Part shown: positions 5,459 to 26,398 of the stretch, in pieces
How positions within the stretch are numbered: the stretch's first letter is position 1
How the letters are laid out: each line of letters starts with the position of its first letter
The notes under the pieces: generated by a model
Told to the model about the DNA's origin: nothing
Seen by the model: only the letters and a program-made list of their open reading frames with translations
Database searches by the model: none
Position numbers and translations under genes: made by a program
Origin: a bacterium
GTDB taxonomy: Bacteria > Zhuqueibacterota > Zhuqueibacteria > Residuimicrobiales > Oceaniaggregativiventaceae
Direction of reading: 5' to 3'
Length of the DNA: 45,826 bases
Assembly (NCBI GenBank): GCA_029565675.1
Contig: JAKQNP010000030.1
Span: 1 to 45,826, forward strand

Positions 5459-5578
5459 GTGTTCCGATGACTAACATTGATGAACAGAGGTAAACAGAAA
5501 TTGCAGGACCATCCTTGAGTAACACCTAAAGTGATGACCTAAATGGCCACGGCGACCTACTTGACCAGAAGGATAAAG

Positions 5579-6046
5579 ATGAAAACCTTAAAAATTCTTT
5601 GGCAGCGCCTCGTGGACGAGCACGGACAAACCTGTGCCCGTTGCGGTGTAACAGAAACAGCGGTGGAGGAAACAGTCAAGAAGCTCAAGCGTTGCCTGAA
5701 AGAACTGGATATCGATGTTGATCTTGAAAAGAAGGTACTCAGTTCCTCTGCATTCCTCAATAATCCGCTTGAGTCGAATCGTATTTGGATCGGCGGAGAA
5801 CCAATCGAGACGTGGCTGTCGGCAACAAGCGGGCAAAGCAAGTGTTGTTCTGCTTGTGGAGATTCAGATTGCCGAACTCTAACAGTTGACGGCAGAACTT
5901 ATGAAGCCATTCCGCCCGAACTGATCGTCAAAGCGGCTTTGCTTGCAGCTGCTCAACTGCTTCAGGGCGAATCCTGCAGCTCATGTTGTCCGCCTGTGGA
6001 ATCGCCAAACAAAAGTGGCGGATGTTGTCCATCATGCAAGCAATGA
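5579..6046 (+). CDS. DUF2703-like cysteine-rich protein
   Basis: 155 aa from the ATG at 5579; AGAAGG lies a few bases upstream, and an upstream in-frame ATG at 5543 would add 12 unconserved residues. The body resembles DUF2703 proteins: MKTLKILWQRLVDE at the start, CARC (Cys19, Cys22), LESNRIWI, then CC-AC-DSDC (Cys89, 90, 93, 98) and IPPELIVKA. The last ~25 residues add six more cysteines (Cys133, 136, 137, 149, 150, 153) arranged as CSSCC and CCPSC. This looks like a metal- or thiol-binding tail. DUF2703 has no established biochemical role known to me. Soluble and without a signal peptide, so cytoplasmic. Confidence 0.75.
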   Translation: MKTLKILWQRLVDEHGQTCARCGVTETAVEETVKKLKRCLKELDIDVDLEKKVLSSSAFLNNPLESNRIWIGGEPIETWLSATSGQSKCCSACGDSDCRTLTVDGRTYEAIPPELIVKAALLAAAQLLQGESCSSCCPPVESPNKSGGCCPSCKQ

Positions 6047-6742: not shown

Positions 6743-7792
6743 ATGATCGTGAAAGCCGATGATCTGTTCGCTTTTCTCACGCGCTGCGCCAAACAAGAAC
6801 TGCCGTACTATTCCCGTGTTTTTTTCCCTCAGCGACCTTTTACCCATCCCGACACTCTGGTGTTGGGAAACAATCCCGATCTCGGAATCCTGGAAATCGA
6901 CTCATACCGGCCGGTTGATCCGGTCAAGCTGTTGCTCTACGGCGTGAGGGAGCGCGTTTATCCCGAACCGCGCAAGATCGCGGACCAATTGGTGATCGGC
7001 GTCAAGGCTTGTGATCTGCACGCCATTGAACTGTTGGATCGCGCGATGATCAACGAACAATTTGTGGATGCCGCCTATGAAGCTTGGCGAAAAGCGACCA
7101 CCATCATCAGCTGTGATTGCACGGCAACCGCGCCGACCTGCCATTGCACGTTGGTCGGTGGCAATCCGTACTCTGAAAGCGGATACGACGCCAATTTGGC
7201 AAGGATAGGCGACGATTATCTGCTGATGGTTGCAACCGCCAAAGGCAAAAAGTTTGCCCAGGCATTGCAAGAACACGCACATACAACCGCAGCCTCGCTG
7301 GACGATCGCAAGAGATTGGCGCAATTTCGCAAAAAGATGACCCAAAAGGTGGAAAAAAAGAATACCAAATTCCGTCGCTCAGAGGATTACAGCGGTCTGC
7401 GCAAATCCGGGATGGAACCGTGGCAAATCGAGTCCAAAGAATGCGTCGGATGTGGAGCATGCACCCATATCTGTCCAACCTGTTATTGTTTAATTCTCAA
7501 CGATGAAAGCAAAGGCAAGCGTTTTGTCAAGGTGCGCAGCTACGATTCATGTCAATGGCACGGTTATGCGCGGGTTGCCGGCGGCGGCACTCCGCGACCG
7601 CACATGACCGATCGATTTCGCAATCGCTATCTGTGCAAATTTGACTACATGCCGAGCAATTTCGATAGACTCGGCTGCACAGGTTGTGGCCGTTGCACCG
7701 ATGCCTGTCCGGCCAAAATCGATTTTCGCAGTGCCGTGCATTCGATCCTCAAAAGCGAAAAAACGGTCCAGATCGAAATTCAGAGAAAATAG
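6743..7792 (+). CDS. HydB/AsrA-like iron-sulfur electron-transfer subunit of the hydrogenase complex
   Basis: 349 aa, with AGGAGG 6-7 nt before the ATG. The family (beta subunit of soluble sulfhydrogenases, also AsrA of anaerobic sulfite reductase) relays electrons between an NAD(P)H-oxidising flavoprotein and the partner catalytic unit. Visible: the conserved GVKACDLHAIELLDR (residues 86-100), a cysteine patch CDC-n6-CHC (124-135), and two [4Fe-4S] motifs, C234-x2-C-x2-C-x3-C244 and C312-x2-C-x2-C-x3-C322. It is the first gene of the operon and is followed 17 nt later by its usual flavoprotein partner. In soluble group 3b enzymes these two sit with a HydD/HydA pair; here they head a membrane-bound group 4 cluster, which is unusual. 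Cytoplasmic, no membrane segment. Confidence 0.85.
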   Translation: MIVKADDLFAFLTRCAKQELPYYSRVFFPQRPFTHPDTLVLGNNPDLGILEIDSYRPVDPVKLLLYGVRERVYPEPRKIADQLVIGVKACDLHAIELLDRAMINEQFVDAAYEAWRKATTIISCDCTATAPTCHCTLVGGNPYSESGYDANLARIGDDYLLMVATAKGKKFAQALQEHAHTTAASLDDRKRLAQFRKKMTQKVEKKNTKFRRSEDYSGLRKSGMEPWQIESKECVGCGACTHICPTCYCLILNDESKGKRFVKVRSYDSCQWHGYARVAGGGTPRPHMTDRFRNRYLCKFDYMPSNFDRLGCTGCGRCTDACPAKIDFRSAVHSILKSEKTVQIEIQRK

Positions 7793-7809
7793 GGAGGAGG
7801 GAGTCTCTG

Positions 7810-8631
7810 ATGAGCAATCCCTACCGCGTCATTCCGGCAACGATCACCGAAGTGATTCAAGAATCGCCGATGATTCGAACCCTAAAATTGTTGCCGGAGG
7901 AACCGATCGTCTTTAAAACCGGGCAATTTGTTGAACTCTCCATTCCATCGGTTGGCGAAGGCCCCTTTACTCCATCCTCATCGCATTACATCAGCGATTG
8001 GATGGATATCACGATCATGAAAACCGGATTTGTGACCGAAGCTGTTCATCGCGCCCAGGTCGGCGATCGCGTCGGGTTGCGAGGGCCCTATGGCAGCCAT
8101 TATCCGCTGGATAAATTCGCCGGCAAAGACGTGTTGATTTTGGGCGGCGGCTGCGGTCTGGCTCCTCTCCGTTCGCTGTTCACGACCATGCTGCATGATG
8201 TCGAACGCTACAACAGCATCACTTTCTTTGCCGGCGCCAAGAGCCCCAAAGATTGCATCTACAAGGATCAGGTAACCGGATGGCGGCAATTTGCCAACGT
8301 GCGGTTTGTCCGCTCTGTCGATGTGGTACCTGAGGGTGATCAGTGGAACGAGGACGTTGGTCTGGTCACCAAATTGTTGGCCAAACTCGACATCGATCCA
8401 AAAACCAATCCAGCGGTTGTCTGTGGCCCGCCGTTGATGATGAAATTCGGCACCTGGGAATTGCTCAAGATCGGTTTTCAGGAATCCAATATCTATCTCT
8501 CGATGGAAAAAAAGATGTATTGCGGTTTCGGCCAGTGCCGGCATTGTGTGATGGGTAAATATTATGCCTGTAAAGATGGCCCGGTCTTTACCTATGATCA
8601 GATCAAAAACGAGGAGGGCATTTGGGAATGA
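7810..8631 (+). CDS. HydG/AsrB-like FAD/NAD(P)-binding subunit with [2Fe-2S] site
   Basis: 273 aa. ATG at 7810 is preceded by GGGAGGAGGGAG. This is a ferredoxin-reductase-fold protein of the sulfhydrogenase gamma / AsrB type. An FAD-binding barrel occupies residues 1-100, the nucleotide-binding motif GGGCGLAPLR lies at 112-121, and CGPPLMMKF lies near 205-213. C-terminal cysteines C238-x4-C243-x2-C246-x7-C254 form the usual [2Fe-2S] ligand set. It should exchange electrons with NADH or NADPH and pass them to the HydB-like subunit. Whether NAD or NADP is used cannot be read from sequence by eye. The stop overlaps the next start (ATGA at 8628-8631), indicating translational coupling. Confidence 0.87.
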   Translation: MSNPYRVIPATITEVIQESPMIRTLKLLPEEPIVFKTGQFVELSIPSVGEGPFTPSSSHYISDWMDITIMKTGFVTEAVHRAQVGDRVGLRGPYGSHYPLDKFAGKDVLILGGGCGLAPLRSLFTTMLHDVERYNSITFFAGAKSPKDCIYKDQVTGWRQFANVRFVRSVDVVPEGDQWNEDVGLVTKLLAKLDIDPKTNPAVVCGPPLMMKFGTWELLKIGFQESNIYLSMEKKMYCGFGQCRHCVMGKYYACKDGPVFTYDQIKNEEGIWE

Positions 8632-9131
8632 AACGGCTGTTTATCGACATTCCGCAGCTGCTCCGCGCCGGAGACTCGATCAAATCGATTTCATGTGAAT
8701 ATCTGTTTCACCGCACCAATGACGGCCATTTTTCCCTGCTGGAAGTGGCAGAGTTTGCATCCTACTGCCGGCAGTGCCTGGACGCATTTTGTGTCCTCGC
8801 CTGTCCAGTCGAGGCTCTGGAACGAACCCCCTCCGGAACAATCAAACGCTTCAACATGCGCTGCGTTGGCTGCAAGAGTTGCATTCTGGCTTGCCCCTTT
8901 GGCACCATATTCCCGCAGGTGATCAATTATGTGACCACGCACTGCGATTACTGTCTCAATCAACTGGCAGACAACCCGGATTATGTGCCTCTGTGCGCCA
9001 AGACGGCACCTCCCAACACCTTCCAGATGCTTGAAATCGAAGCAGATAATCCCAAAAAACAAATCTTTTTGGTCGGCGACCATCTGGCGATCAAGAGCCC
9101 GAACTGGCGAAAAAAGGAGGGGCGGATATGA
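8628..9131 (+). CDS. HycB-like ferredoxin-type subunit
   Basis: 167 aa from the ATG at 8628, which overlaps the previous stop; AGGAGG lies 10 nt upstream, and a TTG two codons earlier is the alternative start. Cysteine sets C47-x2-C-x4-C-x3-C59 and C79-x2-C-x2-C-x3-C89 can bind two [4Fe-4S] clusters. C106-x2-C109 and C123 may bind part of a third site. Proteins of this shape (HycB, CooF and relatives) wire a peripheral electron-input module to a group 4 hydrogenase core. Its position between the flavin module and the NuoH-like gene fits that job. It overlaps the next gene by 4 nt. Confidence 0.8.
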   Translation: MKRLFIDIPQLLRAGDSIKSISCEYLFHRTNDGHFSLLEVAEFASYCRQCLDAFCVLACPVEALERTPSGTIKRFNMRCVGCKSCILACPFGTIFPQVINYVTTHCDYCLNQLADNPDYVPLCAKTAPPNTFQMLEIEADNPKKQIFLVGDHLAIKSPNWRKKEGRI

Positions 9132-10057
9132 GTCTGCAAATGGTGTTCTACCTGCTCGTCTTTCCGGGATTGCTCTTCACCGCCGTGCTGGGGTTGTCGA
9201 TCGGTTGGCTGGATCGCAAATTGTCAGCGCGTTTTCAGTATCGGGTTGGACCGCCGTTTTTGCAAAATTTTTATGATTTTATCAAACTGCTGGGCAAAGA
9301 GACGATTGTCGTGCGCGACTCGGTGCATTCGCTCTTTATCGCCGCCCCATTTGTCGCTTTTGCCATGCTGGTCTGTATCTCCACATTGATCGGGGTCGCA
9401 CTTTTTTATAAACAAGGTTTTCTCGGCGATCTCTTTGTGCTCATGTACCTGCTGATGATCTATTCGATTGCGCTTATCCTGGGCGGTTCCGCAACCGGCA
9501 ACGTCTACTCAAGCCTGGGTGCAGGACGCGAAATCAAGATGCTGCTGGCCGACGAACTCGCCTTTATTCTGATCTGCCTGGTAGCGATTGTCAAGGCAGG
9601 CTATGAAATCGGGTTGGCCGAAATTGCTGCGGTGCAACAGGCGCGAGGCGCTTTCATCGCCTCGCCGTCGGGAATCATCGCTTTTTTAATCGGGTTGATC
9701 TGCATTCAGGCAAAAATGGCCCTGCCGCCATTCAATATAGCGGAAGCTGAGACCGAGATCGTCGAAGGACCGTTGATGGAATACAGCGGACCGCCGCTGG
9801 CATTTTGGTATCTCAACCATTTCATGATGTTCACCATCTATCCGTTTCTCTTGATCTTGTTGTTCTGGGGCGGTTTTTCGGCAAACGGTCTGGGAATTTT
9901 GTGGTTCTCGCTCAAGTATCTGTTGATTGTGGTGGTCATGATTATCCTGAAAAACACCAATCCACGCGTGCGCATCGATTCCGCGCTGCGATTTTTTTGG
10001 CGAATAGCCTTTCCCATCAGTTTTATCGCCTTGGTCCTAGCCGTATTAGGAGTATAG
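9128..10057 (+). CDS. NuoH/MbhM/HycD-like membrane anchor subunit
   Basis: 309 aa with about eight hydrophobic helices. It belongs to the respiratory-chain NADH dehydrogenase subunit 1 family, which in group 4 hydrogenases anchors the soluble arm in the membrane and lines the entry of the ion path. Family signatures: GWLDRKLSARFQYRVGPP near residues 25-42, ALPPFNIAEAETEIVEGP near 197-214, and a acidic stretch ADELAF. It starts in a 4-nt overlap with the ferredoxin-type gene, with AAGGAGGGG upstream, and stops 3 nt before the NuoB-like gene. Confidence 0.9.
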   Translation: MSLQMVFYLLVFPGLLFTAVLGLSIGWLDRKLSARFQYRVGPPFLQNFYDFIKLLGKETIVVRDSVHSLFIAAPFVAFAMLVCISTLIGVALFYKQGFLGDLFVLMYLLMIYSIALILGGSATGNVYSSLGAGREIKMLLADELAFILICLVAIVKAGYEIGLAEIAAVQQARGAFIASPSGIIAFLIGLICIQAKMALPPFNIAEAETEIVEGPLMEYSGPPLAFWYLNHFMMFTIYPFLLILLFWGGFSANGLGILWFSLKYLLIVVVMIILKNTNPRVRIDSALRFFWRIAFPISFIALVLAVLGV

Positions 10058-10060
10058 AAT

Positions 10061-10480
10061 ATGGGATGGTACAACAAACGCCTGGCCAAATCAATCTGGG
10101 TTTTCCATATGAGCGGGTCGCCGTGCAACAATTGCGACATCGAAATCCTGGATTTGTTGACCCCGCGCTATGATTTGGAACGCCTGGGCATCAAGCTGGT
10201 CGGTTCGATCCGGCATGCCGATGTTTTGCTGGTCACCGGCATATTCAATCAGAAAGTCGCACCCAAACTCAAACGCATTTATGAACAAGCGCCCAAACCA
10301 ATTTTTGTCGTAGCCATTGGCACATGCCCGGCTTCCGGCTGTTGCTTCAAGGACAGCTATAACGCAGTTGCCAAGAGAGAAGATATCTTGCCGATTGACC
10401 TCTATATCCCGGGTTGCCCGCCAAAACCAGAAGCGATGATCGAGGGAGTTGCCAAGCTGGTGGAGGTGCTCAATGGCTAA
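10061..10480 (+). CDS. NuoB/MbhJ-like small subunit of group 4 [NiFe] hydrogenase
   Basis: 139 aa. It carries the proximal [4Fe-4S] cluster next to the Ni-Fe site. The four expected ligands are visible: SPCNNC (Cys22, Cys25), GTCPASG (Cys89) and IPGCPPKPE (Cys119). Two further cysteines (94, 95) are present. The protein is short, without the N-terminal flavodoxin-like extension or twin-arginine signal of uptake-type small subunits, as is normal for group 4 enzymes facing the cytoplasm. The last 8 nt overlap the NuoC-like gene. Confidence 0.92.
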   Translation: MGWYNKRLAKSIWVFHMSGSPCNNCDIEILDLLTPRYDLERLGIKLVGSIRHADVLLVTGIFNQKVAPKLKRIYEQAPKPIFVVAIGTCPASGCCFKDSYNAVAKREDILPIDLYIPGCPPKPEAMIEGVAKLVEVLNG

Positions 10481-10904
10481 AATGGACCAGTTTTTCGCTG
10501 AAATGGGAGGTCTGATCGGCAAGACCATCCGCAAACCCAAACGCATCTACTTCGATGTGGATAAAAACAATTTAACTCAGGTTGTCGAATATCTCTTCAA
10601 CCGGATGCACTGCCGATTATCGACCGCAACCGCCACCGAAACCTATCACAATCTGGAGGTGCTCTACCATTTTTCGCATGATGCAAGCGGCGATTACTAT
10701 TGTCCCCGCGTTTTGATCACGGACAAGCAAAAACCCGCTATCCCATCGATCACCCCCATCGTCAGAGGCGCCGAATGGATTGAACGCGAAATGTTTGATT
10801 TTTGGGGGATCGAATTTATCGGCCATCCCAATCTTATCCGGTTGCTGGCCAGGGATCATCCACAAGGGCTTGACAAGCCGCTGCGATTCAGGAGGGATAA
10901 ATGA
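10473..10904 (+). CDS. NuoC/MbhK-like 30-kDa subunit
   Basis: 143 aa from the ATG at 10473, preceded by GGAGGT at a good distance; a second ATG at 10482 is possible. The C-terminal part shows the complex I 30-kDa signature, EREMFDFWGIEFIGHPNL, followed by RLLARD. This subunit supports the interface between the large subunit and the rest of the peripheral arm and carries no cofactor. It is a free-standing gene, unlike HycE-type fusions of the C and D parts. It overlaps the large-subunit gene by 4 nt (ATGA). Confidence 0.9.
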   Translation: MAKMDQFFAEMGGLIGKTIRKPKRIYFDVDKNNLTQVVEYLFNRMHCRLSTATATETYHNLEVLYHFSHDASGDYYCPRVLITDKQKPAIPSITPIVRGAEWIEREMFDFWGIEFIGHPNLIRLLARDHPQGLDKPLRFRRDK

Positions 10905-12088
10905 ACAAAAACCAGATTCCGGTCGGCCCTTTCCATCCGCTTTTGGAAGAAGCGGAATATTTTAATATCACGGTCGAAGGAGAGACGGTGACCGATATCG
11001 AAATGGATATCGGTTGGATGCACCGCGGCCACGAGTTCATTTCTGAACAAAAGACCTTTACGCAATCCATTTTTTTGGTGGAGAGAATCTGCGGCATCTG
11101 TTCCACTTCGCATCCGATTGCATGTGTGCACGCTATCGAAGATATCGATAATGTCGAAATTCCATTGCGCGCGCGCTACATCCGTACATTGGTCGCCGAA
11201 TTGGAGCGCATCCACAGCCATTTGCTTTGGCTGGGTTTGGCCGGCCATTTTATCGGTTATGACACTCTGTGGATGTGGGCGTGGAAATACCGCGAACCGA
11301 TTTTGCAAATGTTTGAAATCATCTCCGGCAATCGCAATCACTACGGCATGATGCGGGTGGGGGGAGTCGCCCGAGACGTCGATGTCGACAAAATTGCTGC
11401 GTTGTCGAAAATACTCGATCAAGTCGATGAGAAAATGGAAATGATCGCCAAGGCAGCCAATGACGATCCAGTGCTGAAAAGCCGCTTGCAAGGCGTCGGC
11501 ATTCTCAAGCACCAGGATGCCGTCAATTTTTGTGCGGTTGGCCCGACCGCCCGCGCTTCGGGAGTCAAAATCGATGTGCGCAAAGACGAGCCGACAGATG
11601 CCTATGATCTGGTCGATTTCAAGGTTATCGTCCTCAAAAACGGCGATGTTTACGACAAAACCGTGGTGCGCCTGCTGGAAATTTTCGAATCGAGCAAAAT
11701 CATTCGCCAATGTATGAAAAAGCTGCGCACGGCAAACGGCCCGATACTCAATTCGGTCAAGGAAATCCCGCCAGGAGAGGGGATCGGCCGCTATGAAGCA
11801 CCGCGCGGCGAAGTTTTTCATTACATGCGCTCGGATGGCTCGAATCGGCCCATTCGCCACAAAGTCCGCGCTCCCAGTTTCAACAATATTCCGACTTATA
11901 TCGCGTCGTGCAAAGGTATCCCTTTGGCTGATGCATTGATCACTCTGGCGGCGGTGGATCCCTGCTACTGCTGCACCGAACGGGCGATTCGCATCAACCA
12001 CTCTGCGGAAGGGGCTCAGCCAATCGATCTGTTGCGTCTATCCCGTGAAAAGACAGAACGAATCAGGAGAACAATCCATGGAGCCTAG
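10901..12088 (+). CDS. Group 4 [NiFe] hydrogenase large (catalytic) subunit, NuoD/MbhL-like
   Basis: 395 aa. Both Ni-binding motifs are intact: L1, ERICGICSTSHPIACVHAIE (Cys64, Cys67, with His71), and L2, DPCYCCTER (Cys355, Cys358). This separates it from NuoD and from MbxL, which lack these cysteines, so it should be a true hydrogenase catalysing 2H+ + 2e- to and from H2. After Arg361 there is a 34-residue tail (AIRIN...IHGA). It resembles the C-terminal extension of HycE removed by the HycI protease, and such a protease gene closes this operon. The extra cysteine inside L2 (CYCC) is uncommon. The 3' end overlaps the next gene by 11 nt. Confidence 0.93.
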   Translation: MNKNQIPVGPFHPLLEEAEYFNITVEGETVTDIEMDIGWMHRGHEFISEQKTFTQSIFLVERICGICSTSHPIACVHAIEDIDNVEIPLRARYIRTLVAELERIHSHLLWLGLAGHFIGYDTLWMWAWKYREPILQMFEIISGNRNHYGMMRVGGVARDVDVDKIAALSKILDQVDEKMEMIAKAANDDPVLKSRLQGVGILKHQDAVNFCAVGPTARASGVKIDVRKDEPTDAYDLVDFKVIVLKNGDVYDKTVVRLLEIFESSKIIRQCMKKLRTANGPILNSVKEIPPGEGIGRYEAPRGEVFHYMRSDGSNRPIRHKVRAPSFNNIPTYIASCKGIPLADALITLAAVDPCYCCTERAIRINHSAEGAQPIDLLRLSREKTERIRRTIHGA

Positions 12089-13895
12089 TGCGCTGCTCAC
12101 CTTTTTGTTCTTGCCAGCTGCCGTTGCGGTGATCAACCTGTTTCTGCCGGTCCGGGCGGCAAAAGCGCTGACCCTCTTGACGCTGCTCTATCTGCTGTAC
12201 TGCGCCATCACACTGTGGCCATCTGCGTCCCTGGGATCGAGTTCAGTCTATCTGGGAGTCGACAGACTGGCTGCTTTTGTGCTGCTCTTCGCGCAGATTC
12301 TTTCAACCGTCATTCTGTTGTTTTCTCTCAAGGGAGTTCGGCGCGATATCGAGAGATTCTTTTTCGTCCTGTTTCCCTTGACTGTCGCCTTTTGCAACGG
12401 CGTTCTGCTCAGTCGCCATGCATTGCTGTTTCTCATCTTTTGGGGTCTGTCTGGAGTCAGCCTTTACCTATTTGCTCTGCTCGGCAAAGACGCAGAAGCC
12501 TCAGCGGCAGCCAAAAAGACTTTTATCATCATCGGCGGCAGCGACGTCTTTTTGATTCTGGGGCTGGTCTTGCTCATCGGATCGCGGCCGGTCGACCTTT
12601 GGTGGCTGGACAAACTCAACCTGCGGCCGGAAGCGCCGCTCTATTGGTTGGCATTTGTCTCGCTTTTGATCGCCAGTCTGGCCAAAGCCGGCGGTTTTCC
12701 GCTGCACACCTGGGTGCCTGATTTCAGCAAAAGCTCACCTATCGAGTCTGTGGCTTTGTTGCCGGCCTCGCTGGACAAATTGCTGGGCATTTTTTTGCTG
12801 GCTCGCATGATGACGTCATTGTTTGTCGTCGGTTTGACCGTCAAGATGATCGTCGTCAGCATCGGCGCATTTACCATCATCAGCGCTGTCATGATGGCTC
12901 TGAGCCAGCACAATGGAAGGCGCATGCTGGGTTATCACGCGGTGAGCCAGGTGGGATATATGATCATGGGGGTGGGCAGTGGGAATCCTCTTGCCTTTGC
13001 CGGCGGGCTTTTTCACATGATCAATCACACTATTTACAAATCCAACCTCTTTCTATCCCTGGGGTCAGTCGAAAAACAAACCGGCAGCAGCGAATTTGAT
13101 GATCTGGGTGGACTCGCCAAATCGATGCCTTTGACGTTTATCATGGCATTGGTCGGGGCATTGGCGATCTCCGGCATTCCGCCCTTTAACGGCTTCTTTT
13201 CCAAATGGATGATCTATCAAGGGTTGCTGGAAACTGCAAAAACACTGCCGGTCGGTTACCAGCTGTGGATGTTGATCTGTTTGATCCTCGCCATCTTTGG
13301 CAGCGCCTTGACTTTGGCCAGTTTCGTCAAATTTCTCCATGCGGTTTTTCTCGGCCGCAATCCCGGCACCCATAAAGTCCGCGAAGCACCGATCAATCAA
13401 TGGCTGGCAACCGGTATTCTGGCAATTCTTTGCGCGATTTTTGGTCTCTTTGCTGTGGCCTTACCGCTTAAAAAGCTGATCGTACCGGTCATGGTCGATC
13501 TGGGGATGCCAGAGGCCATGCAGTTTATCGGTTTCTTTCATCCGCTGCTGCTGTTGGGTCTGTTTGCTGTTGTTTTTGGCCTTGGAATATTGCTCTATTT
13601 TCTGGTACGAACAGTACGCTATGACGATGTTTATCTCGGCGGTCAGCCGGCGGATCCGCGTTTTCGCATCACAGGCAGCGATTTTTACCGCGAAGTGCGG
13701 GAAATGCCGGTGCTCAACAAAATATTTGCCGCGGCAGATAAAAAATACTGCGATGTCTATGAAATGGGGAGCAAAGGTACCTTTGCTTTTTCCGGTTGGC
13801 TGCAAAAGTTGCATCCGGGTCTTTTACCGCTCTATATTTTATATATTTTCCTCGGTCTGCTGATTTTGGGACTCGTGATCAATATCGGAGGGTGA
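12078..13895 (+). CDS. NuoL/MrpA-N-terminal-like antiporter subunit
   Basis: 605 aa, roughly 14-16 membrane helices. ATG at 12078 has CAGGAGAAC just upstream; earlier in-frame codons lie inside the large-subunit gene. It belongs to the proton-antiporter-like family (NuoL, MrpA N-terminal part, HyfB). SLAKAGGFPLHTWVPDF around Lys203 (TM7 lysine), ASLDKLL and INHTIYKSNLF are retained. The TM5 glutamate, in a W-E context in most relatives, is replaced by glycine (FWGLSG, Gly123). A soluble C-terminal extension (about 515-575) resembles that of hydrogenase-type antiporter subunits. Only 1 nt separates it from the gene for the missing MrpA C-terminal part. Confidence 0.86.
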   Translation: MEPSALLTFLFLPAAVAVINLFLPVRAAKALTLLTLLYLLYCAITLWPSASLGSSSVYLGVDRLAAFVLLFAQILSTVILLFSLKGVRRDIERFFFVLFPLTVAFCNGVLLSRHALLFLIFWGLSGVSLYLFALLGKDAEASAAAKKTFIIIGGSDVFLILGLVLLIGSRPVDLWWLDKLNLRPEAPLYWLAFVSLLIASLAKAGGFPLHTWVPDFSKSSPIESVALLPASLDKLLGIFLLARMMTSLFVVGLTVKMIVVSIGAFTIISAVMMALSQHNGRRMLGYHAVSQVGYMIMGVGSGNPLAFAGGLFHMINHTIYKSNLFLSLGSVEKQTGSSEFDDLGGLAKSMPLTFIMALVGALAISGIPPFNGFFSKWMIYQGLLETAKTLPVGYQLWMLICLILAIFGSALTLASFVKFLHAVFLGRNPGTHKVREAPINQWLATGILAILCAIFGLFAVALPLKKLIVPVMVDLGMPEAMQFIGFFHPLLLLGLFAVVFGLGILLYFLVRTVRYDDVYLGGQPADPRFRITGSDFYREVREMPVLNKIFAAADKKYCDVYEMGSKGTFAFSGWLQKLHPGLLPLYILYIFLGLLILGLVINIGG

Positions 13896-13896
13896 G

Positions 13897-14442
13897 ATGC
13901 CGATAGAAAGCTGGTTGATCTATACACTGGGAATCATGTTGCTCGGTTCGATTGTGGCTCTGGAAATCCGCGATATTCTCTCGGCGATCATCGCCATTGG
14001 CATCGTCGGACTCGCGGTTTCCGCCGCTTTTCTCTTCCTGCAGGCGCCTGACCTGGCAATTGTGCAATTCTTGTTCGAAATCTTTGCCCTGGTCATCCTG
14101 GTGCGCGCCTTTATTGGCAAAAAGGCGCATGCCGATACTTTATCGATTCACAAGGTTTATGCCTTTCTGGTTGCTCTGGCGCTGGTGGCGTTTTTTTTCC
14201 TCTTCACACCCGTTTTTCGATCTTTGCCGCCGTTTGGTGAACCTCTGCTGACCACCAGCAGCCATTATCTCACGCATGGCCCGCAGGAGACAGGGGCAGC
14301 CAATATCGTCGCATCGATCGTCCTCGATTACCGCGCTTACGATACGATGGGAGAGGTGACGGTCCTGTTTACCGCCATTCTTGGGGCCCTGACCGTCTTG
14401 CGCATGTCGCGCCAGACCCAAAAGGGGAGGGAGCCAAAATGA
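13897..14442 (+). CDS. MbhD/MbhE-like subunit (MrpA C-terminal part)
   Basis: 181 aa with about six helices. The first half matches the DUF4040/MbhD type (QAPDLAIVQFLFEIFALVIL). The second half matches MbhE and the end of MrpA, with TGAANIVASIVLDYRAYDT followed by GEVTVLFTAILGAL. In Bacillus MrpA these follow the NuoL-like part in one chain, and in Pyrococcus Mbh they are two genes, so here an intermediate arrangement is seen: D and E fused, and split from the NuoL-like part. The role is in the ion path between antiporter-like subunits. It overlaps the mrpB-like gene by 4 nt. Confidence 0.85.
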   Translation: MPIESWLIYTLGIMLLGSIVALEIRDILSAIIAIGIVGLAVSAAFLFLQAPDLAIVQFLFEIFALVILVRAFIGKKAHADTLSIHKVYAFLVALALVAFFFLFTPVFRSLPPFGEPLLTTSSHYLTHGPQETGAANIVASIVLDYRAYDTMGEVTVLFTAILGALTVLRMSRQTQKGREPK

Positions 14443-14888
14443 AGGATTCACATGGCATGACACCCATCGTCAAAACCGTTACCAGGGTAAGCGTTTGGCT
14501 GATTCTTCTCTATGGTTGTTACATCATATTGCATGGCCATCTGACGCCGGGCGGAGGTTTTGCCGGCGGCGTCGTGATCGCCTTGGCCTTTTTGAACGTC
14601 ATGCTCGCTTACGGCAAATCTTTCACGGCTGAATGGCTCAATATTCGGCTGCTCAAGGATATTGAAGCCGCCAGCATTACCCTTTTTCTCGTCCTGGGCT
14701 TGCTGGGCATCGCTTTTGGCAATGCCTTTCTGGCCAATTTTCTCGGCAAAGGTGAAATGTTCTCCCTCTTTAGCTCCGGCACCATTCCTCTCTTCAATAT
14801 TATTATCGGCATCAAAGTGGCTCTTTCGCTTTTTCTGGTCGTCTGGGTATTGGCCGATATCGACTCAGCAAAAGGAGGGGATTTATGA
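14439..14888 (+). CDS. MrpB/MbhF-like subunit
   Basis: 149 aa with four helices. The MnhB signature is clear: TPIVKTVTRV at the N-terminus, then HGHLTPGGGFAGGVVIALAF. Small Mrp subunit required for assembly and Na+/H+ exchange. ATGA overlaps with both neighbours show strict coupling in the operon. Confidence 0.9.
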   Translation: MKDSHGMTPIVKTVTRVSVWLILLYGCYIILHGHLTPGGGFAGGVVIALAFLNVMLAYGKSFTAEWLNIRLLKDIEAASITLFLVLGLLGIAFGNAFLANFLGKGEMFSLFSSGTIPLFNIIIGIKVALSLFLVVWVLADIDSAKGGDL

Positions 14889-15223
14889 TTCTCTACCTGA
14901 TGTGTTTTGCACTGTTTTTGGTCGGACTGTATGGTTTGCTGACGAAACGAGACCTGATCAAAATCATCCTCTCCAGCGCCATCATGGGCTATTCCACCAA
15001 CCTTTTCTTGGTGCTTTTCGGCTACCGACGCGATGCGACCTATGCGATTCTGACGCCGAACAACAGCGGTCAAGCTATGGTTGATCCACTGCCGCAAGCT
15101 CTGGTTCTGACATCGATCGTGATTGAACTGGGAATTACCGCGCTTCTGGTCGCGCTGGCGATTCGCTTGTATCAAAAGTATGGCACTTTTGATATCACAA
15201 AAATGAGGAGCTTGAAAGGATGA
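14885..15223 (+). CDS. MrpC/MbhG-like (NuoK-type) subunit
   Basis: 112 aa, three helices. It matches MrpC / NuoK: GLYGLLTKRDLIKIILSS, then NSGQAMVDPLPQALVLTSIV and IELGITALLVALAIRLY. NuoK-like subunits carry acidic residues in their helices that take part in ion transfer; Glu in VIELGIT is present here. Overlaps the mrpD-like gene by 4 nt. Confidence 0.92.
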   Translation: MILYLMCFALFLVGLYGLLTKRDLIKIILSSAIMGYSTNLFLVLFGYRRDATYAILTPNNSGQAMVDPLPQALVLTSIVIELGITALLVALAIRLYQKYGTFDITKMRSLKG

Positions 15224-16701
15224 TTCTTCCTTATTTTGTCCTTCTGCCGCTGCTCGCCGCATTCTTGATCGCTTTGCTCGCTGGAAAGAAAGACGATTGG
15301 GCCATCGCACTCTCTTTTATGGCAACCCTGTCGATCCTGGCGCTTTCGGTTTTCGGTTTTATAACCATGCGCGAACAGACTTTCACCTATGCCATGAGCG
15401 GCTGGAATATCCCAATTGGTATCTGCCTTGTCCAGGATGCTCTCAGCCTGTTTATGCTCTTTATGATCAGTTTGATCGCCCTGACGTCCCTCTGTTTTTC
15501 GGTGCAGTATATCCGACATCTGGCACAGGACTGGAAATATTACGCTCTTTTTATGCTTTTGCTGACCGGCATGAACGGAGTTGTGGTTACCGGTGATCTT
15601 TTTAATCTCTACGTTTTTATGGAGATCGCATTGATCGCCGCTTTTGCCCTGGTGGCCTATGGTTGCCGCGCCGAGGAATATGAAGCCTCCTTCAAGTATG
15701 CCATTATGGGCGGCTTTTCATCTTCCGTGATCCTGATAGCCATTGCCCTGACCTACAGTTCCACTTCAACTTTAACTCTTGCCGGTATTGCTCAAGCGTT
15801 GCCGGGCCTGGATCAGCGGTTGGTGATGTGGATTGCGGCTCTTTTTCTGGTTGGATTTGGCTTGAAAGCCGCGGCCATACCTTTTCACACCTGGTTGCCG
15901 GATGCCCATTCATCTGCGCCAGCGCCAATTTCGTCGATGCTTTCGGGTGTGTTGATCAAGGCTCTCGGCATTTATGTGCTGATCAGGTTATTTTACAATG
16001 TCTTCAACGCACCACCCCTGTTCATGAATCTTTTGCTGATCATCGGATCGGTGTCGATCATGCTGGGTGTCTTCCTGGCCATTGGCCAATGGGATCTCAA
16101 ACGCTTGTTGGCTTATCACAGCATCAGTCAGATCGGCTATATTTTGCTCGGTTTGGGGTTGGCGACTCCGTTGGGAATCCTGGGTGCTGTTTTTCATCTT
16201 TTCAATCATGCGATTTTCAAATCGTTGCTCTTTTACGGCGCCGGAGCGGTGGAAATGGTTTTGGGAACCCGCAATCTCAAAAAAATGGGCAAACTTGCCC
16301 ATCTTTTACCAATCACCGCCGGCACCAACATGGTGGCTTCCCTGTCGATTTCCGGCATTCCGCCATTCAATGGGTTTTTCAGCAAATTGATCTTGATCAT
16401 TGCGGCCATTCAAGCTGGCCACCCGGTCTATGCCTTTTGGGCGATTCTCGGCAGCCTGTTGACGCTGGCTTCGTTTATGAAGGTGCAGCGCTACGGTTTT
16501 TATGGTGAAGTCGAACACCAAAAGCCGAACATCATGCCTGGCAAACTGATTCACGCTGCAATGCTGATCCTGGCGGTGATCTGTCTCTTGTCGAGCCTTT
16601 TTATAGTGCCGGGTATTCGCGAACACACATTGGATCCCGTGGTTGATGTGATTAACAACAAGATCCACTATATCGAGTTGGTTTACGGGAGGGCGCTATG
16701 A
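15220..16701 (+). CDS. MrpD/MbhH-like antiporter subunit
   Basis: 493 aa, about 14 helices. The key residues of the antiporter family are present: the TM5 glutamate in NLYVFMEIALIAAFAL (Glu135), the TM7 lysine in VGFGLKAAAIPFHTWLPDAH (Lys216), and FNHAIFKSLLF. It therefore looks competent for ion translocation, unlike the other antiporter-like subunit of this operon, which lost the TM5 glutamate. It is the counterpart of MbhH in Mbh hydrogenases and MrpD in Mrp antiporters. Overlaps the mrpE-like gene by 4 nt. Confidence 0.93.
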   Translation: MILPYFVLLPLLAAFLIALLAGKKDDWAIALSFMATLSILALSVFGFITMREQTFTYAMSGWNIPIGICLVQDALSLFMLFMISLIALTSLCFSVQYIRHLAQDWKYYALFMLLLTGMNGVVVTGDLFNLYVFMEIALIAAFALVAYGCRAEEYEASFKYAIMGGFSSSVILIAIALTYSSTSTLTLAGIAQALPGLDQRLVMWIAALFLVGFGLKAAAIPFHTWLPDAHSSAPAPISSMLSGVLIKALGIYVLIRLFYNVFNAPPLFMNLLLIIGSVSIMLGVFLAIGQWDLKRLLAYHSISQIGYILLGLGLATPLGILGAVFHLFNHAIFKSLLFYGAGAVEMVLGTRNLKKMGKLAHLLPITAGTNMVASLSISGIPPFNGFFSKLILIIAAIQAGHPVYAFWAILGSLLTLASFMKVQRYGFYGEVEHQKPNIMPGKLIHAAMLILAVICLLSSLFIVPGIREHTLDPVVDVINNKIHYIELVYGRAL

Positions 16702-17204
16702 CCACGCAAACCAAAAGCCGTCTGATTGTCTTTGTGTTGTCTGCCCTGGTGTGGTGGGCTTTGACCGATATCGGCAAGATCGAGGAAGCTTTGATCGGAG
16801 TCATCGTAGCAGCGATTGTCAGTTTGTTGGCCGGCAAGTTTCTTCTCACTGCCGAAAAACCAGGCCGCTGGCTTCGACGGCTGAAATATGCACTGATTTA
16901 TTTTTTCCACTTCCTGTGGGAAATGGTCAAGGCCAATTTTCATGTCGCCTATCTGGTCATTCATCCCATGACACCGATTAAACCTGGAATTGTGCGTATC
17001 AAAACCAAACTGACAGGCGAAATCGCCCAAACCGTGCTGGCCAATTCCATCACCTTGACTCCCGGCACGTTGACCGTCGACATCGATCCGCAAAAGCAAC
17101 TGCTCTACATCCACTGGATCGATATGAAAAGCACGGCACTGGAAGAGTCGACTGAGCAAATCGCCGGCCGTTTCCAGAATCTATTGCTGGAGGTGTTTGA
17201 ATGA
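16698..17204 (+). CDS. MrpE/MbhA-like subunit
   Basis: 168 aa. Two or three N-terminal helices are followed by the characteristic MrpE cytoplasmic part: IVRIKTKLTGEIAQTVLANS, ITLTPGTLTVDID, LYIHWID. This is the usual first gene of Pyrococcus mbh operons, but here the E-F-G group comes after D, as in Mrp antiporter operons. Overlaps the mrpF-like gene by 4 nt. Confidence 0.9.
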   Translation: MTTQTKSRLIVFVLSALVWWALTDIGKIEEALIGVIVAAIVSLLAGKFLLTAEKPGRWLRRLKYALIYFFHFLWEMVKANFHVAYLVIHPMTPIKPGIVRIKTKLTGEIAQTVLANSITLTPGTLTVDIDPQKQLLYIHWIDMKSTALEESTEQIAGRFQNLLLEVFE

Positions 17205-17539
17205 AACTCGTCCGTTGGATTCTCGGCCTGATCATTTTGATGGCATTCTTTATTGCCAACTTTTTTGTCTATGATGGTGCCATCTATGCCAAATTGATCA
17301 ATGTCTATCTGTTCAGCTGCCTCTTTGTTCTATACCGGGTTTTGGCCGGCCCGTCAGCCGCCGACCGCTTGGTTGCGGTCGATATTTTCGGCATTTTGAT
17401 TATCGGCATGCTCAGCATCATCGGTTTGGCGTATCAAAATGACTTTTTTATGGATATCGGATTGATCTGGGCACTCTTGAGTTTTGTCGCGTCGTTGGCT
17501 TTTGCCAAAATATTGGAAGGGAGATCGCTCGATGATTAG
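17201..17539 (+). CDS. MrpF/MbhB-like subunit
   Basis: 112 aa, three helices, somewhat longer than the ~90 aa typical of MrpF because of an N-terminal extension. The signature RVLAGPSAADRLVAVDIFG is intact; its acidic residue in the conserved DR motif is part of the Na+ path in studied Mrp complexes. Overlaps the mrpG-like gene by 8 nt. Confidence 0.9.
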   Translation: MKLVRWILGLIILMAFFIANFFVYDGAIYAKLINVYLFSCLFVLYRVLAGPSAADRLVAVDIFGILIIGMLSIIGLAYQNDFFMDIGLIWALLSFVASLAFAKILEGRSLDD

Positions 17540-17867
17540 AGAAACCATCGGCCTGATCCTCATTTTTGTGGGAACGGCGTTCGATTTTTTGGGGGTGCTG
17601 GGGCTGGTTCGTCTCCCAGATGTCTATAACCGATTGCAGGCTGCCACCAAATGCGTCACTTTCGGCTCCGCCGGCATTTTGTGCGGTGTGTTTATCCTGC
17701 AAGGCTTCAACACCTTCGGATTCAAGGCTTTGCTCGGCATTGCATTTATTTTCATGGCTTCACCGGTCGCTGCGCACGTTATTGCACGCGCTGCGCATCG
17801 AAGCAAAATCGCACTGGCACCGGGAACCAAAACCGATCAATATGCCGAGGACAAGGAACTGCGCTAA
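17532..17867 (+). CDS. MrpG/MbhC-like subunit
   Basis: 111 aa, three helices. ATG at 17532 is preceded by GGAAGGGAGAT. Matches MrpG: GVLGLVRLPDVYNRLQAATKC, then SPVAAHVIARAAHRSKI. It completes the A-to-G set of Mrp-type genes in this operon. Confidence 0.92.
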   Translation: MIRETIGLILIFVGTAFDFLGVLGLVRLPDVYNRLQAATKCVTFGSAGILCGVFILQGFNTFGFKALLGIAFIFMASPVAAHVIARAAHRSKIALAPGTKTDQYAEDKELR

Positions 17868-17915
17868 ACAGTGATCTGCCCTGCGAATGGCTGCAGATTT
17901 TATCAGGAGGTTGCC

Positions 17916-18518
17916 ATGATTCTTCCGAAAATTCGGGAAATCAAAGAAGCTTTGACCGCGCTTTTTTCCGCACCCTACACCACACGATTTCCCTCCCAAC
18001 CTTTTGAGGCGGTAAAAGAATATCGCGGCATACCGCGATACCATGCGGAATATTGTATCGGCTGCGGAGCTTGTGCACAGGTCTGCCCGGCAAAAGCGAT
18101 TACGATGCAGGACGACCTGAAAAGAAACATGCGGGTTCTGACCGTCGATCTTGCCTCCTGTATGAATTGCGGACAATGTGAAGAGAAATGCATCACCATA
18201 AAAGGCATCCAGCTTTCCAACGAACATTCCCTGTTCTATGCCCAGCGCACGGAACCCCAGGTATTTGAGAGAGTGGAAAAACCGCTGATTTGCTGTGAGA
18301 GCTGCGGAGCGCCTATTGCGTGTGTCGACCATCTCGAATGGATCAAGCTGCGCCTGGGTGCCAAGGCTTATGCGCACCCAAACTTTTTGTTGTTGCTGCA
18401 AACCAAGCGCGGGGAAGTGGAACCCGGCAAGATTAAAGAGCAGCTGCGCCGTGAAGACCAGATTAAATGGACCTGCGCTCGTTGTCGCCAAATGATAGTC
18501 ACGATCGATGAATTTTGA
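17916..18518 (+). CDS. NuoI/MbhN-like two-cluster ferredoxin subunit with extra C-terminal cysteine domain
   Basis: 200 aa; ATG at 17916 has AGGAGG 7 nt upstream. Two [4Fe-4S] motifs (C47-x2-C-x2-C-x3-C57; C82-x2-C-x2-C-x3-C92) are arranged as in NuoI, EchF and HycF, which pass electrons to the NuoB-like subunit. The C-terminal half adds CCESCG and ACVD (Cys126-136) and WTCARC near residue 184. This could be a small zinc ribbon or an additional metal site not found in plain NuoI proteins. The gene lies after the Mrp genes rather than with the catalytic subunits. It overlaps the protease gene by 11 nt. Confidence 0.85.
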   Translation: MILPKIREIKEALTALFSAPYTTRFPSQPFEAVKEYRGIPRYHAEYCIGCGACAQVCPAKAITMQDDLKRNMRVLTVDLASCMNCGQCEEKCITIKGIQLSNEHSLFYAQRTEPQVFERVEKPLICCESCGAPIACVDHLEWIKLRLGAKAYAHPNFLLLLQTKRGEVEPGKIKEQLRREDQIKWTCARCRQMIVTIDEF

Positions 18519-18984
18519 AGATTTTTACAATCACCTCTCTGGGTACAACCCGGGGAGCATCGTGTTTATCGCGCTGGGCAATGAAAACCGTGCCGATGAT
18601 GCTTCTGCCTATCATTTTATCGACAAACTCAAAAAACAACACCCTTTTGCTGCCGCTCATTACATCAGTGCGGGCAGGAATCCCGAAAACGTTCTGCAAC
18701 AAATTCTCGACCGCCATCCAAAAGCGGTGATTTTGATCGATGCAGCCGAATTTGCTGCGCAACCAGGCGAAATTGCTTTTTTGCCCACGCATCACATGCA
18801 GAACAGCCTCAGCACCCACGGCTATTCTTTGGCGCTGATCAAAAAATACCTGCAGAGCACCATACCTGTTGACGTTTACTATCTGGGAATTCAACCCCAA
18901 ACGCTGGAATTCCATCACCCTCTTTCTGCCGCTGTTCGCCAAGGGATTAAGCGATTTTTTGCCAGTTCGACTGCATCAAGCTAG
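18508..18984 (+). CDS. HycI-type hydrogenase maturation endopeptidase
   Basis: 158 aa of the HycI/HupD peptidase family (M52), which removes the C-terminal tail of the hydrogenase large subunit once nickel is inserted. Visible: GNENRADDASAYHF near residue 24 (usually GN--R-DDG-G), ILIDAAEF (second acidic ligand) and STHGYSL with the metal-binding His. The first motif has Ala-Ser in place of the usual Gly-Gly pair, a modest deviation. As last gene of the hydrogenase operon, its likely substrate is the large subunit at 10901-12088. Confidence 0.85.
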   Translation: MNFEDFYNHLSGYNPGSIVFIALGNENRADDASAYHFIDKLKKQHPFAAAHYISAGRNPENVLQQILDRHPKAVILIDAAEFAAQPGEIAFLPTHHMQNSLSTHGYSLALIKKYLQSTIPVDVYYLGIQPQTLEFHHPLSAAVRQGIKRFFASSTASS

Positions 18985-19177: not shown

Positions 19178-20554
19178 ATGTTGTCCCAGTGGAAAATCGT
19201 CATGCCCTTCCATACCATGGAAACACTGCGCACGCGATTGAGCTGGTATGTCAATTTGCGCTGGCTGGCGATCTTTGCCATTCTCGCTGCGGTGCCGTTG
19301 GGACAGCGCGTTTTAAACTTTACCCTCGCTTATCCGCAAATCGTGCTGGTAGCTTCAATTCTATTGCTGCTCAATTTGTGCTATTTTATTCTTTGCCGTT
19401 ATTTGCCCATCAAGAGCATGGTTCAGGAATTGGTCTTTTCACAAGTTCAGATAGTCGGTGATTTGCTGCTGGTTTCTCTGTTGATTCATTTTTCCGGCGG
19501 CATCGAAAATCCATTTTTCTTTCTCTATATCGTCCAGGTGATCCTTTCAGCCATCATGCTGCCAGGAAATCAGCTCCCCTTGTTCAACGGTTTGCTCGCC
19601 GCTTTGTTGATTACAGGCTGGACAGTTGCAGAGTACAATGGCGTGGTGCCCGGCTATACTCTGGGAACAGGACGACTCAGCTTGCCGTACATCTTTACCG
19701 CATTATGCGCGTTCTATGTCACCAATTTCACCGGGCTCTATATCATTCAAAATTTTATGGTTCGTTATCGCCATCTCAAAGAGATGATCGATAATAAAAA
19801 CCGTCTGTTGCACAAATCAATTCGTCAGCGCAAGACCATATTTCGCTATGCCGCGCATGAATTGAAATCGCCGCTGGTCATGGTTAAAAGCACTTTGCAG
19901 GCGGTGCGCGTGTTGAGCGGTGATATCCTGCCACCCGAAGTTGCCGATATGGTGGAACGCGGGGAAAACCGTTCCTCGCAAGTGTTGGAAATGGTCAACG
20001 AAATGATCGCCATCACCCGTTATAATCAGGGGGCTGAAAAGCACGTTCTGGAAACCATCGACTTGCAGGAATGGTTGCAGCAGGTGGTTGACTTGCAGCG
20101 CGATTACGCATTGACCAAACGCATCGATTTGCAGATGGTGCGCAAACTTGAGTCAATTCATGTGGTCGTCGATCGCATCGATATGGAACGCGTCGCCAGG
20201 AATCTGGTCAACAACGCTTTGCGCTATACACCGGAAGGGGGCAAGGTGGTCGTCGAGCCGTTTTTGTTGAGTACCCACTATGGTTTTTCAGTGCGTGACA
20301 GCGGCATCGGCATCGCCAGAAAAGATCTCGACAAAATATTCAACGAGTTTTATCGAGCCCCGAATGCCAAAGAAATGGAACGGGTCGGGACAGGCCTGGG
20401 CTTGATACTGGTCAAAGAGATCATGCGCCGCAACGGCGGCCATATCCGGGTTCGCAGCGCCATCGGCCGTGGTTCGACTTTTACCGCTGAATTTCCCCTC
20501 GATGTCCATGCACCGTTTACCGCCAGCACCGAAGTCGTCAAAATCGAGAAATGA
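19178..20554 (+). CDS. RegB/PrrB-like membrane sensor histidine kinase
   Basis: 458 aa. About six membrane helices fill residues 25-195. The third carries GGIENPF (107-113), matching the GGxxNPF heptapeptide through which RegB/PrrB kinases sense quinone redox state. The kinase core follows: H-box AAHELKSPL with His227, N-box RNLVNNALRYTPEGG (341-355), G1 VRDSGIGIA (372-380) and G2 GTGLGL (404-409). The redox cysteine of RegB near the H-box is absent. Alternative starts at 19204 and 19219 are possible; AGGGGAT precedes 19178. No response-regulator gene lies nearby, so its partner is elsewhere. Sitting between the hydrogenase and hyp operons, it may control one or both; RegBA regulates hydrogenase genes in Rhodobacter (known), while the role here is inferred. 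Confidence 0.85.
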   Translation: MLSQWKIVMPFHTMETLRTRLSWYVNLRWLAIFAILAAVPLGQRVLNFTLAYPQIVLVASILLLLNLCYFILCRYLPIKSMVQELVFSQVQIVGDLLLVSLLIHFSGGIENPFFFLYIVQVILSAIMLPGNQLPLFNGLLAALLITGWTVAEYNGVVPGYTLGTGRLSLPYIFTALCAFYVTNFTGLYIIQNFMVRYRHLKEMIDNKNRLLHKSIRQRKTIFRYAAHELKSPLVMVKSTLQAVRVLSGDILPPEVADMVERGENRSSQVLEMVNEMIAITRYNQGAEKHVLETIDLQEWLQQVVDLQRDYALTKRIDLQMVRKLESIHVVVDRIDMERVARNLVNNALRYTPEGGKVVVEPFLLSTHYGFSVRDSGIGIARKDLDKIFNEFYRAPNAKEMERVGTGLGLILVKEIMRRNGGHIRVRSAIGRGSTFTAEFPLDVHAPFTASTEVVKIEK

Positions 20555-22777: not shown

Positions 22778-23021
22778 CGAGTTTTTGTTGATTTTGTTGT
22801 CCAATCTGCTCAAGGTGTTCAAGAACAAGACGGGCTTCTTCGGAATCCATGATCGACAAACCAAAGCCCACATGCACAGTCACATAGTCGCCGACTTGCG
22901 CTTCAGGAAGAAAAGTCAAGTTAATGGATTTGCGGATACCGCCAAAATCGACAATTCCCAGGCGGTTTTCAGGATCCAAATGGGTGAGTTCGATGATTTT
23001 TCCAGGTACAGCCAGGCACAT
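22737..23021 (-). CDS. hypC: HypC/HupF-family hydrogenase maturation chaperone
   Basis: 94 aa from the ATG at 23021. This start gives the essential N-terminal MCLAVPGKI, where Cys2 binds the iron unit after Met removal; an in-frame start 10 codons upstream would bury that cysteine. AAAGGT lies 8 nt before the chosen ATG. Further family motifs are VDFGGIRKSINLTFLPE, VGDYVTVHVGFGLSIMD and EEA. A C-terminal extension rich in Gln, Lys and Arg overlaps hypD. Confidence 0.94.
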   Translation of the reverse strand: MCLAVPGKIIELTHLDPENRLGIVDFGGIRKSINLTFLPEAQVGDYVTVHVGFGLSIMDSEEARLVLEHLEQIGQQNQQKLDENARRFPRSGKS

Positions 23022-23028
23022 TGTTTTT

Positions 23029-26024: not shown

Positions 26025-26365
26025 GTGTCCGTCTCCAGATCAGAAATCAACAGCTCATCGCCGCTCAGGATAACCAATTGGGTGGATTGACAGTGCGGAC
26101 AGAACAGATGGAGCTCATCGAGATCGAATTCCCTACCACATTTTCGGCAACGCGCTTGTGCCGGAACACGTTCGATGTGAAGGCAAGACCCGGCCAGCCG
26201 GGTGTTTTCGATGAGGATTTGATAACAGCTTTGCAATTGTTCTTCGATCAAAGGCTGCAATTCGCCGATTTTGCAATGCACGATTTTAAGCGATTTCATG
26301 GCATGTTCCTGCAGCGCAGCATCGACAAGATCGAAAATTTCTCTGGCCAGTTTCAACTCGTGCAC
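26015..26365 (-). CDS. hypA: HypA nickel chaperone
   Basis: 116 aa with a GTG start at 26365. This choice gives MHELKLAREIFD; HypA binds nickel through its N-terminal amine, His2 and Glu3. A TTG one codon upstream would give MVHEL and misplace the histidine. GGAGG ends 7 nt before the GTG. The zinc site CRKCGREF-n12-CPHC is intact. First gene of the hypABFCDE operon. Confidence 0.93.
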   Translation of the reverse strand: MHELKLAREIFDLVDAALQEHAMKSLKIVHCKIGELQPLIEEQLQSCYQILIENTRLAGSCLHIERVPAQARCRKCGREFDLDELHLFCPHCQSTQLVILSGDELLISDLETDTCQ

Positions 26366-26398
26366 CAACCATCCTCCAAGCGAAAAGACTTTCCAAGT

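Follow-up and report, generated by a model that had tools for sequence, protein, structure and literature searches.

A candidate NAD(P)H-linked, ion-translocating group 4 [NiFe] hydrogenase operon in a KSB1 bacterium and its relatives

The window analysed (45,826 nucleotides; contig JAKQNP010000030.1, assembly GCA_029565675.1) comes from an uncultured, anaerobic member of candidate division KSB1, whose draft genome of 4.4 Mb is 95% complete. At positions 6743–18984 it carries a tight operon of 17 genes, all on the + strand, with Pfam and NCBIfam matches as expected for a membrane [NiFe] hydrogenase headed by HydB- and HydG-like subunits (together HydBG). The operon probably encodes one membrane complex, in which electron exchange between NAD(P)H and H+/H2 would be coupled to ion movement via an Mrp-type arm; the sequences are best read as those of an NAD(P)H:H+ oxidoreductase that works reversibly and translocates ions, its second, MBS-like antiporter subunit having lost the glutamate of transmembrane helix 5 (TM5). 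Since the same operon recurs in about 20 phyla, NAD(P)H rather than ferredoxin is probably the electron partner of a large class of hydrogenases now listed as ferredoxin-dependent.

HydB-HydG-CooF module

The HydB-like multi-[4Fe-4S] subunit (6743–7792; 349 amino acids) was assigned to the sulfhydrogenase beta/AsrA family (NCBIfam: ShyB, 5.8e-41; HydB, 1.7e-39; Protein Data Bank (PDB) 9nez_B, Pyrococcus furiosus SHI beta, 6.6e-36). The HydG-like subunit (7810–8631), with FAD, NAD(P) and [2Fe-2S] sites, matched the sulfhydrogenase gamma/AsrB family (AsrB, 1e-62; HydG, 4.4e-54; PDB 9nez_C, 8.5e-52); its predicted model (predicted local distance difference test score 91.7) gave the NADPH-bound gamma subunit of P. 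furiosus SHI (9nf0_C) as best fold match, template modelling score 0.92. Positions 144 and 152 of HydG are K or R in nearly all homologues and resemble the NADPH-dependent SHI more than NqrF; these basic residues hint weakly at NADPH rather than NADH as the substrate. Between HydG and NuoH a gene left unnamed in the first-pass annotation of this DNA (8628–9131) encodes a CooF/HycB-like ferredoxin subunit with three [4Fe-4S] clusters (Pfam Fer4_11; NCBIfam matches of DmsB/HydN type), which is likely the electron bridge to the hydrogenase. In the homologue alignments the FAD and NAD motifs and the four [2Fe-2S] cysteines of HydG, 15 cysteines of HydB and 12 of CooF are invariant.

Sequence distances at 45 loci were compared with those of the hydrogenase large subunit: r = 0.89 (HydB), 0.91 (HydG) and 0.92 (CooF), values reached in 0 of 2000 permutations; for comparison, NuoB gave r = 0.90 and MrpD 0.82. 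By this measure HydB, HydG and CooF are co-inherited with the large subunit as closely as NuoB and MrpD. HydB-HydG-CooF stood immediately 5' of NuoH in 65 of the 67 loci from other genomes that had enough upstream DNA; this was the synteny search which the first-pass annotation had proposed, and it bore the arrangement out. A search for fusions of HydB, HydG or CooF with hydrogenase subunits, which would have been evidence of contact, found none.

The host genome has a single [NiFe] large subunit (one PF00374 match, the group 4 subunit described here); no second HydB, no other close HydG and no AsrC match above cut-off was found in it. HydBG therefore has no other classical partner there. Three lines (co-inheritance, invariant residues, no alternative partner), none of them physical, thus say that HydBG is part of the hydrogenase. 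The pyridine-nucleotide-linked, ion-translocating hydrogenase proposed in the first-pass annotation stands as the best-supported reading, HydBG being fixed in about 20 phyla with its cofactor residues kept and without another partner; the novelty claimed for its exact composition was weakened by published relatives, given below.

Operon and [NiFe] core

The gene order is hydB, hydG, cooF-like, nuoH, nuoB, nuoC, nuoD, nuoL/mrpA-N-like, fused mbhD-mbhE, mrpB, mrpC, mrpD, mrpE, mrpF, mrpG, nuoI, hycI. Neighbouring genes overlap by 4–11 bases or have no more than 17 bases between them, the sole exception being 48 bases ahead of nuoI, and good Shine-Dalgarno sites lie upstream of most of them; for these reasons the 17 genes very likely form one transcriptional unit, and the overlapping genes resemble a translationally coupled operon. 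The arrangement is not due to chance, because an identical order was found in 65 other loci. The HydB, HydG, NuoH/B/C/D/I, Mrp and HycI genes named in the first reading of this DNA were all recovered on this strand at the positions then assigned, in agreement with Pfam and NCBIfam.

The hydrogenase core comprises a NuoH/MbhM-like membrane subunit (9128–10057; Pfam NADHdh, 3.2e-62), a NuoB/MbhJ-like small subunit for one [4Fe-4S] cluster (10061–10480; Oxidored_q6, 2.1e-28; C22, C25, C89 and C119 invariant), a NuoC/MbhK-like subunit (10482–10904, start at 10473 or 10482; Complex1_30kDa), the NuoD/MbhL-like [NiFe] large subunit (10901–12088; Complex1_49kDa and NiFeSe_Hases; best PDB match MbhL, 6cfw_L, 1e-82) and a NuoI/HycF-like subunit with two [4Fe-4S] clusters and a C-terminal Cys2-Cys2 site (17916–18518; Fer4_7; NCBIfam matches of HycF/HyfH type). 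The HycI-type maturation endopeptidase follows at 18508–18984 (Pfam HycI; TIGR00072, 1.9e-23). All four Ni-binding cysteines are present, as had been claimed: C64 and C67 in RICGIC, C355 and C358 in DPCYCC; each is at least 99% conserved in 84 homologues. The subunits of NuoB/C/D/H/I type and the intact L1 and L2 Ni-binding cysteines place the enzyme in group 4.

Membrane arm

The operon encodes two antiporter-like subunits (12078–13895 and 15220–16701). That at 12078–13895, a NuoL/MbsX-like protein of 605 residues with a C-terminal extension, was closest to MBS subunit X (6u8y_X, 1.2e-42; residues 46–595, that is 550 residues aligned, extension included), and its predicted model has an antiporter-like fold, with helices at the C-terminal end. 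Glycine stands in place of the TM5 glutamate in 63 of 66 homologues of this subunit, whose lysines 203, 234 and 418 are invariant; in the other, MrpD/MbhH (15220–16701; Proton_antipo_M, 1.4e-65), Glu135 of TM5 was kept in all homologues compared. One of the two antiporter channels would thus be disabled or altered. Another group 4 enzyme, an Asgard one, was also reported to have a second antiporter and an HL helix (PMC11291895). In locus L027 (genome G017) the NuoL/MbsX-like gene is broken into three open frames, perhaps by sequencing or assembly errors.

The remaining Mrp genes encode the C-terminal part of MrpA as fused MbhD and MbhE (13897–14442; Pfam MbhD, MbhE), MrpB/MbhF (14439–14888; MnhB), MrpC/MbhG (14885–15223; Oxidored_q2), MrpE/MbhA (16698–17204; MNHE), MrpF/MbhB (17201–17539; MrpF_PhaF) and MrpG/MbhC (17532–17867; PhaG_MnhG_YufB). 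The count of seven kinds of Mrp genes given earlier holds provided that MrpA is counted as split into the antiporter at 12078–13895 and the fused MbhD/MbhE at 13897–14442.

Distribution

With each species represented by one genome, a scan gave 576 confirmed large-subunit relatives, the best 80 of which were analysed; they are mostly metagenome-assembled genomes (MAGs), so that individual phylum labels may be wrong. The record titles of these 80 name KSB1, Marinimicrobia, Ignavibacteria, Aminicenantes, Cloacimonadota, Thermotogota, Aerophobetes, Omnitrophota, Desantisbacteria, Chitinispirillaceae, Elusimicrobia, Latescibacterota, Kiritimatiellota, Lentisphaerae, Clostridia, Calescamantes, Caldisericota, WOR-3 and others. 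Across their loci the genes follow almost the same order. The closest named relative is a KSB1 MAG of the same genus (JAFGJN010000014; NuoD 87% identical).

Weighing of the NAD(P)H-linked reading and its alternatives

Several points weigh against one NAD(P)H-linked complex. Shared gene order and co-inheritance are no proof that the subunits form one physical complex; HydDB describes group 4g, to which published relatives belong, as of undetermined role and putatively ferredoxin-coupled (PMC5037454); the Cloacimonadota loci L076 and L080 keep CooF and the hydrogenase without HydBG; in one locus (L108:1980–3722) a molybdopterin oxidoreductase gene separates HydG from CooF, and genes of this kind occur near the operon in two others (L101:361–2430 and L105:768–3542). 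The molybdopterin oxidoreductase genes suggest that CooF may be able to take electrons from other, formate-dehydrogenase-like donors. In L076 and L080 the place of HydBG upstream of CooF is taken by an Ehr/MBS-like complex that lacks Ni ligands and might supply the hydrogenase with electrons instead.

A dual-donor (confurcating) enzyme, in which NAD(P)H via HydBG and reduced ferredoxin via CooF or NuoI would jointly drive H2 formation, is rather unlikely: the multiple distinct Fe-S entry points, the bifurcating-type [FeFe] hydrogenase gene sets of the same genome and the precedent of Mbh-Bfu, itself a prediction (PMC9304861), speak for it, but the operon is devoid of a BfuB/NuoF-like bifurcating subunit and the fold of HydG fits the one-flavin subunit of SHI. 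The description of group 4g in HydDB, the two [4Fe-4S] clusters kept in NuoI and the Cloacimonadota loci without HydBG would agree with a ferredoxin-coupled, Mrp-linked hydrogenase, with HydB-HydG as a soluble NAD(P)H oxidoreductase of its own, linked to the hydrogenase by co-transcription only. This is also improbable, as HydBG-CooF is fixed in 65 of 67 loci and co-inherited, the genome offers HydBG no alternative partner, and HydB-HydG, its flavin aside, has no catalytic centre of its own. Reduction of sulfur compounds by HydBG (sulfhydrogenase or AsrAB-like), giving an H2:polysulfide or sulfite system, is suggested by the family matches to HydB/HydG and AsrA/AsrB and is very improbable, since AsrC is absent from the operon and from the genome above cut-off, and sulfur reduction by SHI is a trait of a group 3b enzyme.

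Electron path and energetics

For the NAD(P)H-linked complex, the predicted electron path is NAD(P)H – FAD – [2Fe-2S] (HydG) – HydB – CooF – NuoI – NuoB – NiFe; HydB-HydG would replace ferredoxin as the electron entry point. Published potentials are about −380 mV for NADPH and −280 mV for NADH in vivo, and −414 mV for H2 under standard conditions (PMC9304861). By our arithmetic from these, the H2 potential is about −296 mV at 1e-4 bar H2, and the transfer from NADPH to H2 is downhill by about 80 mV; at syntrophic H2 pressures it could pump roughly one ion. Transfer from NADH would not be downhill at 1e-4 bar, and near standard H2 pressure neither NADH nor NADPH would react downhill; with NADH, or at higher H2, the enzyme would draw on the gradient or work in the direction of H2 uptake. 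Because little separates NAD(P)H from H2 in potential and the difference varies with pressure, the enzyme is probably reversible, its direction being set by H2 pressure and ion gradient; a disabled or altered antiporter channel would suit so small a difference.

A wider proposal is made tentatively: the relatives may form a widespread, mis-assigned class of energy-converting hydrogenases which would draw on the ion gradient to reduce protons with electrons from NAD(P)H (reverse electron transport) or operate in the opposite direction; an MBS-like arm with one antiporter disabled at TM5 would fit the small driving force, and the enzyme might be a main NAD(P)H-dependent H2 route in many uncultured phyla.

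The gene content marks the host as a fermentative anaerobe, which fits the proposed complex: it has RnfC, POR and several [FeFe] hydrogenase genes next to NuoF-like ones, and COX1 was not found in the genome. The same genome carries an Ehr-like NuoCD homologue without Ni cysteines, accompanied by antiporter subunits (G000:C32:49490–50527).

Relation to described systems

In a tree of 63 large subunits, run as the phylogeny that had been proposed as a check, the window clade (45 sequences, support 92/96) was separate from MbhL, HycE and complex I; the reference branches are long and the deep order is unsure. Within the limit set by these branches, the large subunit falls outside Mbh (group 4d).

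The hydrogenases of Ca. Celaenobacter antarcticus (L080) and Ca. Saelkia tenebricola (L100), with large subunits about 70% and 59% identical to that of the window, were published as HydDB group 4g (PMC8542988); the putative link of the window enzyme to 4g rests on these published calls for its nearest MAGs. Members of 4g are likewise Mrp-linked. The Saelkia locus holds the same operon, HydB-HydG-CooF included, whereas the Celaenobacter locus is without HydBG. The publication describes these enzymes as H2-evolving, Mrp-linked and, by analogy, ferredoxin-driven, the HydBG module being unmentioned (PMC8542988); group 4g has been called polyphyletic (PMC11291895). An "enigmatic" cluster of Saganbacteria RX5A, reported once, in 2019, combines asrA, asrB, cooF, Mrp and group 4 hydrogenase genes as the window does, with closest relatives reported in Omnitrophica and Zixibacteria; unlike the window it includes a molybdopterin oxidoreductase, and its function was left open, an Mbh-like one being proposed (PMC6349859).

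The composition is thus not unseen before: relatives were already in HydDB group 4g (PMC8542988, PMC5037454), the gene cluster had been described in Saganbacteria (PMC6349859), and Mbh-Bfu had been predicted as a further membrane enzyme of group 4 with a link to NAD(H) (PMC9304861). In the literature searched, the fixity and breadth of the HydBG composition and its consequence for the electron donor were not found, and there was no usable prior account for Kosmotoga/Mesotoga or Ignavibacterium.

P. furiosus MBH (group 4d, 6CFW) has the nearest solved large subunit, and most MBH subunits have homologues in the window; MBH takes electrons from ferredoxin and has one antiporter subunit, whereas the window adds HydB, HydG, CooF and a second antiporter-like subunit. 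MBS/MBX (6U8Y) has two antiporter subunits, as does the window, and its subunit X is the best match of the 12078–13895 product; however, MBS/MBX has no Ni site and is not a hydrogenase, the window keeps all four cysteines, and the TM5 glutamate present in MBS-X is lost in the window. HydB and HydG of P. furiosus SHI (group 3b, 9NEZ/9NF0) are homologous to those of the window and share their cofactor sites, but the SHI core HydA/HydD is a soluble group 3b unit absent from the window genome. Mbh-Bfu of Dehalococcoides is, like the window enzyme, a predicted membrane group 4 hydrogenase with an NAD(H) module; it uses the bifurcating BfuABC instead of HydBG and has only six hydrogenase genes (PMC9304861). 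BfuABC (NuoE/F-like) subunits were not found in the operon.

Four assignments were tried and rejected: a ferredoxin-only Mbh as best reading (HydB-HydG-CooF is fixed in the operon), an AsrABC sulfite reductase (no AsrC above cut-off in the genome), a group 3b sulfhydrogenase (no group 3 large subunit in the genome) and complex I (Ni ligands present, operon without NuoEFG).

In surveys based on HydDB, 4g counts as an energy-conserving hydrogenase that is probably driven by ferredoxin. If those 4g enzymes that bear HydBG are NAD(P)H-linked, the gradient could be spent in making H2, or ions could be pumped while H2 reduces NAD(P)+, and metabolic models would change for Marinimicrobia, Cloacimonadota, Ignavibacteria, Omnitrophota and KSB1; the enzyme would moreover connect MBH, MBS/MBX and complex I as a modular bridge, with a Ni site, two antiporter-like subunits and its own pyridine-nucleotide module.

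In-frame TGA in hydrogenases of a sister family

Fourteen genomes of a sister family in the same class (G002, G003, G004, G005, G009, G011, G013, G015, G022, G023, G027, G028, G032, G033) have, in place of the window-type operon, a group 4 operon of HycE-like type, which is headed by HydB-HydG in nearly all loci read far enough. Each large subunit contains one in-frame TGA. In 12 of 12 large subunits read out (L010–L021, e.g., L014; from G002, G003, G004, G009, G011, G015, G022, G023, G027, G028, G032, G033), it replaces the second L1 cysteine (ERICGI-U-GxVHS), L2 being intact, and a hairpin (ACAGTAC-GGS-GTACTGT) follows shortly 3' of it, with one outer-stem variant base in one of the twelve. 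Amino-acid-invariant codons were identical in all sequences at 6 of 11 positions in the hairpin stretch vs 4 of 184 elsewhere, so that this synonymous-codon test did mark the hairpin as significant; single-sequence folding energies gave no significance for a hairpin resembling a selenocysteine insertion sequence (z about 0 to −2). A selB match above the curated cut-off was found in most of these genomes. The sister family thus has a probable [NiFeSe] hydrogenase with selenocysteine at an unusual L1 ligand; natural [NiFeSe] enzymes carry it at the non-bridging L2 cysteine, another Ni ligand (PMC11212049). This selenocysteine may be more surprising than the NAD(P)H link.

Among the order- and class-level relatives searched (G000–G033), the window-type and TGA-type operons never occurred in one genome; both types alternate within one family (G000/G001 vs G002/G003), as if one replaces the other.

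Adjacent genes

A PilS-type histidine kinase with six transmembrane helices (19178–20554, + strand; Pfam) lies directly 3' of hycI and is kept there in many KSB1, Marinimicrobia and Ignavibacteria loci (39–77% identity); it is possibly a dedicated regulator, outside the complex. It is followed on the − strand by the maturation genes hypE, hypD, hypC, hypF, hypB and hypA (20631–26368; Pfam, HypC signature). Upstream of the operon, a Cys-rich DUF2703 protein is encoded at 5543–6046 (E 6e-39).

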